From NCBI RefSeq assembly GCF_014640075.1, contig NZ_BMGG01000002.1:496001-560000 (forward strand): a stretch of DNA of 64,000 nt, written 5' to 3'. The stretch comes from Chelatococcus reniformis (lineage in GTDB: Bacteria; Pseudomonadota; Alphaproteobacteria; Rhizobiales; Beijerinckiaceae). The notes below the pieces were generated by a model that was not told the DNA's origin, did not search any database, and saw only the letters and a program-made list of their open reading frames with translations. Position numbers and translations under genes: made by a program. This document shows positions 10,831 through 56,615 of the stretch, one piece after another; positions within the stretch are counted from its first letter, which is position 1; every line of letters starts with the position of its first letter.

Positions 10831-12882
10831 TTAGATGTCGAGCTCCTCATCGGAGGCAAAAGCCGCCCGCTCCTGGATGAAAGCAAAGCGTGCTTCGGGC
10901 TTGTTGCCCATCAAGCGCTCGATGGTGTCGGCGGTCGACGGACGCTCTTCGTCGATCACATGGACGCGGAGCAGCGTGCGGCGGGCCGGATCCATGGTGG
11001 TTTCCTTGAGCTGATTGGCCATCATCTCGCCGAGCCCCTTAAACCGTCCGACCTCCACCTTTCGCCCCTTGAACTCGACGGCGATCAGCCGATCGCGATC
11101 GGCCTCGTCGCGGGCGTAGAGCGTCTTGCTGCCGCTGCTGACGCGGAACAGAGGCGGAACGGCGAGATACAGGTGTCCGTTGTCGATCAGCCGCGGCATC
11201 TGGCGGTAAAAGAAGGTGATCAGCAGCGAGGCGATGTGGGCGCCGTCGACATCGGCGTCCGTCATGATGATCACCTTTTCGTAGCGCAGGTCCTCGTCGC
11301 GGTATTGAGTGCCGGTGCTGCAGCCCAGCGCCTGGATCAGATCGGCGAGCTGCTGGTTCTGCGCGAGTTTGTCGCGGCCGGCCGAGGCGACGTTGAGGAT
11401 CTTGCCGCGCAACGGCAGTATCGCCTGGGTCTGGCGGTTGCGTGCCTGCTTGGCGCTGCCGCCGGCGGAATCGCCTTCGACGATGAAGATCTCAGAGCCG
11501 GCGGCGCCCGCCGCCGTGCAGTCCGCGAGCTTGCCGGGCAGGCGCAGGCGCCGCGTGGCGGTCTTGCGGGCGACCTCCTTCTCGGCCCTTCGGCGCAGCC
11601 GCTCCTCGGCCCGCTCGATCGTCCAGTCGAGCAGGCGGAGCGCCTGTTGCGGCGCCGCGGCGAGCCAATGGTCGAAGGCATCGCGAAGCGCCGCCTCGAC
11701 GATGCGTGTCGCCTCGGCGCTGGCCAGCTTGTCCTTGGTCTGCCCCTGGAACTCGGGTTCGCGGATGAACACCGATAGCATCGCGGCGCACGACACCATC
11801 ACATCCTCGGCGGCGATCTGGGCGGCACGCTTGGCTTGGCCGATGCGTTCGGCGTGGTCGCGCAGGCCGCGCAGCAGCGCCAGGCGCAGGCCCTGCTCGT
11901 GGGTGCCGCCCTCCGCCGTCGGGATCGTGTTGCAATAGGAGTGGATGAAACCGTCGGCATTGGCGAGCCAGGCGATGGCCCATTCCAGTGAGCCGTGGCC
12001 CCCGGGCTTCTGAATCTTGCCGGCAAAGACCTGGTCGGCGACCAGCACGGTGCCCTCGATCTCGCGTGACAGATAGTCCTTGAGGCCGCCTGGAAACCGA
12101 AAGCTCGCCTCCGCCGGCACGTTGTCGATGCCGGCGAGCAGGGCAGGCGCGCAGCGCCAGCGAATTTCGACACCGCCGAACAGGTAGGCTTTCGAGCGGG
12201 CCATCTTGAACAGGCGGCGTGGGCTCAGATGCGCCGAGGCGCCGAAGATCTGCGGGTCGGGATGAAACCTCACCGTCGTGCCGCGGCGATTCGGAGCCCG
12301 TCCCACGGTCTCGATCGGCCCGAGCGGCAGACCGCGCGAGTAGGCTTGCCGATAGACGGTCTGGCTGCGGACGATCTCCACCTCCAGCCGGTCCGAAAGC
12401 GCATTGACCACGGAGATGCCGACGCCGTGCAGGCCGCCGGACGTGTCGTAGACCTTGGAATCGAACTTGCCGCCCGAATGCAGGGTGGTGAGAATGACCT
12501 CGAGCGCCGACTTCTTGGGAAACTTGGGGTGCGGATCGACGGGAATGCCGCGCCCGTTGTCCGTCACGCGCACGAAGCCGCCAGCCTCCAGTTCGACCTC
12601 GATGAAGGTGGCGTGGCCGGCCACGGCCTCGTCCATCGCATTGTCGATCACCTCGGCGAACAGGTGATGCAAGGCCTTCTCGTCGGTGCCGCCGATATAC
12701 ATTCCGGGCCGGCGCCGCACCGGCTCCAGCCCCTCGAGCACCTCGATGGAGGCCGCCGTGTAGTTGCCTTCACCGGCTGTCTGCGGCACCGCGGGTGGCT
12801 TGGCCTGCGGCGGCGTCGCCGCCTTCGCCAGCGGCTTGCGGACGGCCGCCGCGCCCCCAAAAAGATCGTCTCTGCTCGCCAT
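10831..12882 (-). CDS. parE: DNA topoisomerase IV subunit B (ParE)
   Basis: ATPase subunit of the decatenating type II topoisomerase. The 683 residues show the GHKL ATPase signatures IDNAMDEAVAG, DNGRGIPVD and the GGLHGVGISVVNAL lid, then the TOPRIM motifs IFIVEGDSAGGSA and IMTDADVDGAHI. The length fits ParE (about 630-690) rather than alphaproteobacterial GyrB (about 800). The first 40 residues are a Pro/Ala-rich extension. The neighbours are not replication genes. Confidence 0.94.
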   Translation of the reverse strand: MASRDDLFGGAAAVRKPLAKAATPPQAKPPAVPQTAGEGNYTAASIEVLEGLEPVRRRPGMYIGGTDEKALHHLFAEVIDNAMDEAVAGHATFIEVELEAGGFVRVTDNGRGIPVDPHPKFPKKSALEVILTTLHSGGKFDSKVYDTSGGLHGVGISVVNALSDRLEVEIVRSQTVYRQAYSRGLPLGPIETVGRAPNRRGTTVRFHPDPQIFGASAHLSPRRLFKMARSKAYLFGGVEIRWRCAPALLAGIDNVPAEASFRFPGGLKDYLSREIEGTVLVADQVFAGKIQKPGGHGSLEWAIAWLANADGFIHSYCNTIPTAEGGTHEQGLRLALLRGLRDHAERIGQAKRAAQIAAEDVMVSCAAMLSVFIREPEFQGQTKDKLASAEATRIVEAALRDAFDHWLAAAPQQALRLLDWTIERAEERLRRRAEKEVARKTATRRLRLPGKLADCTAAGAAGSEIFIVEGDSAGGSAKQARNRQTQAILPLRGKILNVASAGRDKLAQNQQLADLIQALGCSTGTQYRDEDLRYEKVIIMTDADVDGAHIASLLITFFYRQMPRLIDNGHLYLAVPPLFRVSSGSKTLYARDEADRDRLIAVEFKGRKVEVGRFKGLGEMMANQLKETTMDPARRTLLRVHVIDEERPSTADTIERLMGNKPEARFAFIQERAAFASDEELDI

Positions 12883-50826: not shown

Positions 50827-52107
50827 ATGGCGAGTCCATCCGGAGAACCTGCTGCGACTCGTCCCTTCGCGCCATTCGAGTGGATGATCGCCTGGCGCTA
50901 TCTGCGCGCGCGCCGCAAGGAAGGCTTCATCTCCGTCATCGCCGGCTTTTCGTTTCTCGGCATCATGCTCGGGGTCGCGACGCTGATCATCGTCCTGTCG
51001 GTGATGAACGGCTTCCGCCATGAGCTGCTCGCCAAGATCATCGGCATCAATGGCCATATCTTCGTGCAGGCGCTCGACCGCCCGCTGACCGATTTTGTCC
51101 AGCTCTCCGAGGCGTTGGCCAAGGTACCCGGCGTCAAGCTCGTGGTGCCGATGGTGGAAGGGCAGGCGCTGGCGTCGTCGCCGTCCGGCGCCAACGGCGT
51201 GCTGGTGCGCGGCGTGCGCGAGGCCGACCTGCACAATATCGACTATGTCTCGGCCAATCTGCGGGAAGGGACGATCGAGGGCTTTGATACCAAGGGCGGC
51301 GTGATCATCGGCAAGCGACTCGCCGACAGCCTCGGATTGCACGCCGGCGACACCATCACGCTGGTGGCGCCACGCGGCGCCGCGACGCCCTTCGGCACCG
51401 CCCCGCGCATCAAGTCGTATCCGGTCAACGGCGTCTTCGAGATCGGCATGTCGGAGTTCGACGGCACCTTCGTCTACATGCCGTTGGCCGAGGCACAGGC
51501 CTATTTCAACCGCGCCGACGACGTCAGCGTCATCGAGGTCTACATCGCCGACGCCGATCAGGTGGACGGCGTGCGCCAGGCGATCGAACGGGGCATCGAC
51601 CGCCAGCTCATGCTGACGGACTGGCGCACGCGCAACCGCACCTTCTTCGGCGTGCTCAAGGTCGAGCGCAACGTCATGTTCCTGATCCTGCTGCTGATCG
51701 TGCTGGTGGCTGCGCTTAACATCGTCTCGGGCATCATCATGCTGGTCAAGGACAAGAGCGCCGACATCGCCATCCTGCGCACGATGGGCGCGACGCGCGG
51801 CGCCATCATGCGGATCTTCCTGATCACCGGGGCGGCCATCGGCGTCGTCGGCACGTTGGCCGGGCTGGTGCTTGGGCTGCTGCTCTCCTGGAACGTCGAG
51901 GCGATGCGGCAATTCCTGTCGAACATGCTGGAGACCAATCTGTTTCCCGCCGAGTTCTACTTCCTCAGCCGGCTCCCGGCGGTGGTCGATCCGGGTGAGG
52001 TGATCACCGTGGTGATGACCGCCTTCGTGCTGTCGCTGCTCGCCACGCTCTATCCGAGCTGGCGGGCCGCCAAGCTCGACCCGGTCGAAGCCCTGCGCTA
52101 CGGCTGA
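50827..52107 (+). CDS. lolC: Lipoprotein-releasing ABC transporter permease (LolC/LolE family)
   Basis: Inner-membrane permease that extracts outer-membrane lipoproteins for LolA. 426 residues: N-terminal [20 protein letters not shown], a first helix (about 33-60), a periplasmic domain of about 220 residues, and three C-terminal helices with [20 protein letters not shown] and [19 protein letters not shown]. Only one permease gene is here, so a homodimer is likely, as in other alphaproteobacteria. It overlaps lolD by 1 nt. Confidence 0.95.
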
Positions 52108-52805
52108 TGGCCTTGAGCGAGTCCGATCCCCCCGCCCTGTTCCTGTCGAAAATCGAGCGGTCCTACGCCGAAGGCGAAGGTGCGCTCCAGATCCTGCGTG
52201 GAGCCGACCTCGCCATCTGGCCGGGCGAGATCGTCGGCCTGGTCGCCCCCTCGGGCACCGGCAAGTCGACGCTCCTGCATGTCGCCGGCCTCCTGGAAAA
52301 GCCCAACGGGGGCGAGGTCTACATCGGCGAGCAGCCGACCGTAGGGCTCGACGACGACGGCCGCACGCGGCTGCGGCGGACCGAAATCGGCTTCGTCTAC
52401 CAGTCGCATCATCTGCTCCCGGAGTTCTCGGCTCTGGAGAACGTCGTCATCCCGCAGATGATCACCGGCCTGAACAGGCAGGAGGCCGCGGCGCGCGGCA
52501 GCGAGCTGCTGGGCTTCCTCGGCCTCGGGCAGCGGCTCACCCACCGCCCGGCGGAGCTGTCGGGCGGCGAGCAGCAGCGGGTCGCCATCGCCCGCGCCGT
52601 GGCCAACGCCCCACGCCTGCTCCTGGCGGACGAGCCGACCGGCAATCTCGACCCCGGCACCGCCGAGCACGTCTTCACGACACTGCTGCAGCTGGTGCGG
52701 GCCACCGGGCTCGCAGCCCTGGTGGCCACCCACAACCTGACCCTGGCGGCACAGATGGATCGCCGGGTCACCATTCGCGACGGGTTGATCGTCTCGGCCG
52801 ACTGA
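52107..52805 (+). CDS. lolD: Lipoprotein-releasing ABC transporter ATPase LolD
   Basis: 232 residues with all ABC motifs: Walker [14 protein letters not shown]-loop [10 protein letters not shown], signature [14 protein letters not shown], Walker [13 protein letters not shown] and the H-loop ATHNL. The family's [18 protein letters not shown] is a good LolD marker. Translationally coupled to lolC (TGATG). Confidence 0.96.
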
Positions 52806-52868: not shown

Positions 52869-52918
52869 TTGTCGAAAGAACAAAACAAGAACATATTGCA
52901 TTTGTTCGCTTTCGGGAG
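52869..52918 (+). promoter_or_regulatory. LexA (SOS) box within a promoter
   Basis: GAAC-AAAACAA-GAAC at 52878-52892 is a perfect direct repeat of the alphaproteobacterial LexA operator (GTTC-N7-GTTC read on the other strand). It lies inside the 17-nt spacer of a plausible promoter, TTGTCG at 52869-52874 and CATATT at 52892-52897, an ideal place for repression. GGGAG (52914-52918) is the ribosome site of the next ORF. Confidence 0.7.
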
Positions 52919-52925
52919 TCCTCAC

Positions 52926-53024
52926 ATGACCCATCTCATCCTTCGTGGCGCGGCCGAGCTCGCCGCCTTGTCGCTGTTCGTTGCCATGATCGGCTTGTGG
53001 GCGGGGATCGCTGCCGGTGCCTGA
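52926..53024 (+). CDS. 32-residue single-pass membrane peptide, predicted SOS-regulated
   Basis: Reads MTHLILRGAAELAALSLF, then VAMIGLWAGIAAGA. One hydrophobic helix covers about residues 9-30 with a short positive/polar N-terminus, suggesting N-in topology. GGGAG stands 7 nt before the ATG. A LexA box lies 34 nt upstream. Size, membrane helix and SOS control recall SidA of Caulobacter, a 29-residue SOS-induced division inhibitor, but I cannot claim homology. dnaE starts 132 nt downstream on the same strand. Confidence 0.7.
   Translation: MTHLILRGAAELAALSLFVAMIGLWAGIAAGA

Positions 53025-53156: not shown

Positions 53157-56615
<3,459 letters not shown>

Follow-up and report, generated by a model that had tools for sequence, protein, structure and literature searches.

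The window analysed here is a 64,000-nt stretch of the Chelatococcus reniformis genome. Its forward strand carries a lolC-type permease gene (50827..52107; PF12704, MacB_PCD, and PF02687, FtsX), a lolD-type ABC ATPase gene (52107..52805; PF00005) and dnaE, encoding the DNA polymerase III alpha subunit (53157..56615; PF07733, DNA_pol3_alpha, over cut-off). Between lolD and dnaE, on the same strand, we identified a 32-codon ORF (52926..53024, with the stop codon at 53022-53024) encoding the peptide MTHLILRGAAELAALSLFVAMIGLWAGIAAGA. From the ORF itself, its relatives and a helix model, we regard it as a putative gene for a SidA-like single-helix peptide. Direct reading of the forward strand upstream of it reveals a -35-like hexamer TTGTCG (52869..52874), a -10-like hexamer CATATT (52892..52897) 17 nt away, and a GGGAG ribosome-binding site (52914..52918), 7 nt after which the ATG begins at 52926. 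The promoter spacer holds an exact match to the motif GAAC-N7-GAAC (GAACAAAACAAGAAC, 52878..52892, forward strand), a predicted LexA-type operator whose last base is also the first of the -10-like hexamer. A generic sigma-70 promoter scan returned no promoter and left the TTGTCG/CATATT pair unscored. The ORF is separated from dnaE by 132 nt, and no terminator-like site was found between them.

The initial annotation of this DNA had pointed to a perfect GAAC-N7-GAAC within the 17-nt spacer of TTGTCG/CATATT followed by GGGAG, and to a 32-codon ORF between lolCD and dnaE. The motifs are read at just these positions, and the coordinates and the Pfam assignments of the neighbours bear out the location. 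It had also regarded the gene as easily missed, in keeping with the absence of any match for the window peptide in Pfam, NCBIfam and PHROGs.

In three hand-picked groups of relatives with members of equal length, the in-frame pN/pS ratio is 0.13 (11 Bradyrhizobium-type sequences), 0.27 (15 Rhizobiaceae-type) and 0.43 (8 Methylobacterium-type), as against 0.93-3.37 for the two other frames in the same groups. The third codon position is the most variable in all three. Judged from these alignments, the ORF frame is under purifying selection. An AlphaFold2 single-sequence model of the window peptide consists of one helix (residues 2-31, mean pLDDT 93.9). The pN/pS ratios and this predicted structure support the earlier description of a real coding frame with a single hydrophobic helix.

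Conservation at dnaE loci

The best 80 of 590 dnaE matches, nearly all from Hyphomicrobiales, make up a set of named loci, whose dnaE exhibits 56-76% identity over the best segment. An iterated profile, with these sequences included, finds the family peptide in 72 of the 80. Four loci with less than 300 nt upstream of dnaE were set aside (L033, L036, L037 and L055), L036 and L037 having both peptide and box. Among the remaining 76, all with more than 450 nt, 70 have the peptide, and 65 carry an exact box no more than 450 nt from dnaE. In a shuffle control on 75 loci (without L038), the exact box was observed in 64, versus a mean of 1.0 and a maximum of 4 after shuffling; none of these 75 has a box without a peptide. 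The five peptide loci with no exact box in range exhibit either an exact box farther out (L035, L059) or a one-mismatch box (L046, L077, L079). Members come from Bradyrhizobium, Rhizobium, Sinorhizobium, Methylobacterium, Microvirga, Bosea, Ancylobacter and Stappia, among others, and identity to the window peptide ranges from 14 to 72% across 44 relatives. Conservation of both peptide and box in related genera had been proposed as a check of the initial annotation, and the search found no loss of either at this level.

The GAAC-N7-GAAC motif alone is not significant, with 2 matches in the window versus 1.4 expected and 126 matches genome-wide versus 92 for the reversed pattern. These counts being not far above chance, we rejected the box as sole evidence; its significance derives from its conservation at dnaE loci. 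The seven-base spacer is A-rich over the 76 exact boxes of the 80 named loci, as it is in the window. The other exact match in the window (11146-11160) has a G+C-rich spacer and is probably a chance occurrence. LexA is encoded in the genome, and the same motif precedes both lexA (GAACACAGCAAGAAC) and recA (GAACAAAAAAAGAAC).

Nine Bradyrhizobium-type loci (L043-L045, L048 and L050-L054) exhibit a GAAC-N7-GAAC and a GTTC-N7-GTTC facing each other, 3 bases apart, before the peptide (for instance L044:2640-2672), an arrangement that suggests a putative double LexA operator. On contig C9 of genome G000, a GAAC-N7-GAAC site (85313-85327) is followed on the same strand, about 3.4 kb further on, by a dnaE2-like second dnaE-type polymerase gene (81184-81951). 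This is presumably the arrangement to be expected of an SOS imuA-imuB-dnaE2 operon.

Copies away from dnaE

The peptide is absent at dnaE in six of the 76 named loci (L023, L040, L047, L070, L096 and L097). A search of these six genomes with the family alignment located a similar peptide elsewhere in four, behind an exact box at L291, L292 and L294 and behind a one-mismatch box, read by eye, at L293; the same search found no family peptide anywhere in the genomes of L040 and L047. The profile E-values are 3.2e-6 (L291), 0.005 (L292), 0.08 (L293) and 0.36 (L294), the last two being weak, so that we accept L293 and L294 on account of their box and frame. Genome G010 is a comparable case, with a peptide and an exact box at L106 and none at its dnaE locus (L152).

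A second copy of the peptide occurs in two sister genomes, G001 (L149:13012-13110) and G002 (L150:11274-11366), surrounded by genes for an integrase, a CI-like repressor, a phage sliding clamp, and primase or replication proteins. In L149 a GAAC-N7-GAAC (GAACAAAATGTGAAC) lies upstream of the small-gene operon and is the sole such site in 19.9 kb. In L150 the site upstream of the small-gene operon (GAACGTAAAGAGAAC) is on the other strand, and it may be due to chance because four such sites occur in 19.9 kb. With the G001 phage copy as query, the window peptide shows 72% identity, as against only 55% for G001's own chromosomal copy. When 248 genomes from the family of the window were searched with this query, four matched at E≤0.01, and G001 and G002 alone had a second copy; diverged copies escape a query as short as this. 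No match to the prophage copy was found in annotated phage genomes. These prophage sequences raise the appealing possibility that phages make use of a brake on host division.

Relationship to SidA

A dnaE search of 385 genomes of the class gave 283 matches, for 110 of which (the 30 best and 80 from further down the list) the upstream region was examined. One of these regions, L250, contains a 29-aa peptide behind a box, with an ABC ATPase on one side and dnaE on the other. A search of the family of L250, designated f88, produced matches in 83 of 99 genomes (E≤1). In the best 30 f88 loci the peptide is invariably 29 aa long (once with a GTG start) and is accompanied by an exact box in 23 and a one-mismatch box in the other seven; the strict dnaE motif lies downstream in 24 and a lolD-like ATPase motif nearby in 16. 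All seven distinct f88 peptides submitted match NF033228, the SidA model, at 44-71 bits for a cut-off of 35. In the class-wide scan described below, two of the three f88 genomes, G335 and G122, fall below that cut-off (21.4 and 18.1 bits).

In the f88 genus g351 an inosine-uridine nucleoside hydrolase adjoins the peptide (L268; PF01156, E = 6.8e-79), its motif being present in seven of nine g351 loci and not in L280 and L283. This agrees with Caulobacter, whose sidA is CCNA_02004 (PMC10769358) and whose CCNA_02005 is an inosine-uridine nucleoside hydrolase (PMC3667746); in the older numbering, Caulobacter dnaE bears the designation CC1926 (PMC1839093). We infer that f88 corresponds to the Caulobacteraceae and, from the f88 loci, that sidA adjoins dnaE in Caulobacter. 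If f88 is indeed this family, SidA and the window gene share their position, and the location is a likeness rather than a difference. As far as the compared loci tell, the lolD/dnaE context unites the window gene with SidA. The initial annotation had taken the site between lolCD and dnaE as setting a new effector apart from SidA, a claim that is not supported, since peptides scoring as NF033228 occupy the same spot behind the box in f88.

The same annotation had noted that the peptide differs in sequence from SidA, and here it was right: the window peptide has no match to NF033228 at its curated cut-off of 35 bits and scores -0.4 bits on a profile of the f88 peptides. Eleven peptides from outside f88 (nine chromosomal without the prophage copy) were also compared with NCBIfam, and only that of Ancylobacter shows NF033228 (E = 0.04, below the cut-off). 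The connection appears at the level of peptide sets. A profile of the 72 named-set peptides gives a median of 10.4 bits on 30 f88 peptides, with control maxima of 6.6 on 614 natural transmembrane windows and 1.5 on reversed peptides, and with a median of 0.1 on 600 shuffled f88 peptides, one of which reached 10.2. In the reverse direction, the f88 profile gives a median of 6.8 on the named peptides (5% point -1.1); the natural controls reach 6.1 at most, and one of 1440 shuffles reached 13.9. Given the single shuffles at 10.2 and 13.9, it is the score distributions that are convincing, not individual scores.

The sequence comparisons thus support homology to SidA for the peptide set, as does position; for the window peptide taken singly they give no such support. 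That peptide stands outside NF033228 as the curated cut-off defines it; an orthologue is what its synteny, its operator, its length and its predicted helix suggest. With position, operator and intermediate sequences taken together, it looks like an orthologue of SidA. Of the initial proposal of a novel SidA-like effector, the SidA-like character is supported by the sequence comparisons, while novelty apart from SidA is not, the peptide being best read as a diverged orthologue.

Distribution in Alphaproteobacteria

Scanned over the class, NF033228 passes its cut-off in one of 372 genomes (G412, a member of f88), so that the curated model misses most of the units described here. Among 14 control genomes it passes in one; the seven controls with matches include Caulobacter vibrioides. 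A 45-row profile reached E≤0.05 in only 11 of 289 genomes of the class. For a protein of this length such a profile lacks power, and dnaE served as the anchor instead.

We defined a unit, by rules set after seeing the data, as an exact box, a ribosome-binding site and an ORF of 24-48 aa with a hydrophobic stretch. Such a unit is found in 33 of the 110 class-wide regions upstream of dnaE (the window and three others of its order counted), spanning 16 families, and is missing from those of the other 77 dnaE loci; neither 30 rounds of shuffling nor the reverse strand yielded a single one. On the profile, ordinary helices do as well as several of the 33; with only 26-47 residues to compare, we refer to them as candidate SidA-like units that may be homologous. 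Judged from these loci, the range of the SidA-type family is wider than that of the curated family.

Discussion

Caulobacter SidA is an SOS-induced inner-membrane peptide of 29 aa that interacts with FtsW and FtsN; its overproduction is reported to block division, it does not prevent divisome assembly, and its action is bypassed by mutations in FtsW or FtsI (PMC4211646). In Bacillus subtilis, YneA also acts on FtsW (PMC13396833). We propose, with a probability of about 0.8, that the window ORF encodes an SOS-induced SidA-type inhibitor of septation driven by FtsW/FtsI/FtsN, and is a diverged orthologue of Caulobacter sidA. With LexA occupying 52878-52892, RNA polymerase would be blocked at the overlapping promoter. 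Upon damage, RecA on single-stranded DNA would bring about LexA cleavage, and the 32-aa peptide would be made and enter the inner membrane as one helix. By analogy with Caulobacter, it would then hold FtsW/FtsI/FtsN, the complex for septal wall synthesis, in an inactive state for as long as the damage persists, and cells would filament instead of dividing over broken DNA. The gene, its frame, the operator sequence, their conservation and the synteny with recognised SidA are observed here, as is a predicted single helix.

The 132 nt between the ORF and dnaE, in which no terminator-like site was found, suggest a different role: the ORF might be a leader peptide (uORF) whose translation adjusts expression of dnaE from a transcript common to both, the peptide being inert in trans. 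There is a parallel in Sinorhizobium meliloti, where a translated short ORF, sORF25, lies in the dnaE1 5' UTR, and some 5'-UTR short ORFs have been suggested to act as uORFs (PMC10117765). However, the amino-acid sequence itself is conserved, and in Caulobacter it is the SidA protein that acts on the divisome (PMC4211646). Moreover, boxed peptides occur elsewhere in four of the six genomes lacking the copy at dnaE and in G010, and prophage copies lie away from dnaE in two genomes. Relocated copies with their own box argue against a dnaE leader and for a trans-acting product. Since such copies are not always on the dnaE transcript, we rejected the leader-peptide explanation, which we consider very improbable.

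TisB is a depolarising peptide, and the ORF could likewise encode an SOS-induced membrane peptide with another target, either of the TisB-like depolarising kind or a modulator of another membrane enzyme. The high divergence (14-72% identity among the 44 relatives) would suit such a change of target, but the position and operator common to recognised SidA and the family-level profile link to the f88 peptides make it unlikely. A chance ORF beside a chance GAAC-N7-GAAC could be envisaged from the motif frequency alone, about 1.4 expected per window. It is refuted by the conservation of both frame and box and by the 33 of 110 class-wide units with none in the shuffled or reverse-strand controls, and its likelihood is practically nil.

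Beyond a diverged SidA in the window genome, one may speculate that SidA is an ancestral SOS division checkpoint across Alphaproteobacteria, with rhizobia, Bradyrhizobium, Methylobacterium and their relatives retaining it next to dnaE as a microgene. Temperate phages would have captured it and, by carrying it in early operons close to an SOS-type box, would halt division of the host during induction. We hold this broader scenario tentatively, at slightly less than even odds. For model symbionts and methylotrophs, the analysis offers a single, precisely defined candidate gene, and the large, diverse set of SidA-like helices could reveal which residues contact FtsW.

Among known systems, the closest is SidA itself (CCNA_02004; NF033228, div_inhib_SidA), which resembles the window gene in being a tiny predicted single-helix peptide with a LexA-type direct-repeat operator. 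The window gene lies directly upstream of dnaE, as sidA would and as the SidA-scoring f88 peptides do, and 16 of 30 f88 loci have the lolD-like motif. In contrast, the window peptide is 32 rather than 29 aa long and too diverged for NF033228. YneA, SosA and ChiZ are likewise small membrane division inhibitors, induced by SOS or DNA damage, but are found in other phyla; YneA and ChiZ are described as unrelated genes (PMC4211646), and low-confidence models place SidA on FtsW TM7, on the opposite side from YneA (PMC13396833). Caulobacter DidA is also a small membrane division inhibitor with a related mode of action, but is 71 aa long, SOS-independent and FtsN-binding (PMC4211646), unlike the 32-aa window peptide with its LexA-type operator.

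Finally, sORF25 of S. meliloti, detected as translated by Ribo-seq (PMC10117765), is also a short ORF before dnaE, and at the nearest locus in our set, Sinorhizobium sp. 6-70 (L089), both peptide and box occupy this place. The passages of that report on which we draw propose no LexA or division role for sORF25 (PMC10117765). Its position points to identity with the SidA-like peptide. In that case its Ribo-seq detection suggests that a SidA-type peptide is translated outside Caulobacter, and sORF25 would thereby gain a likely role.
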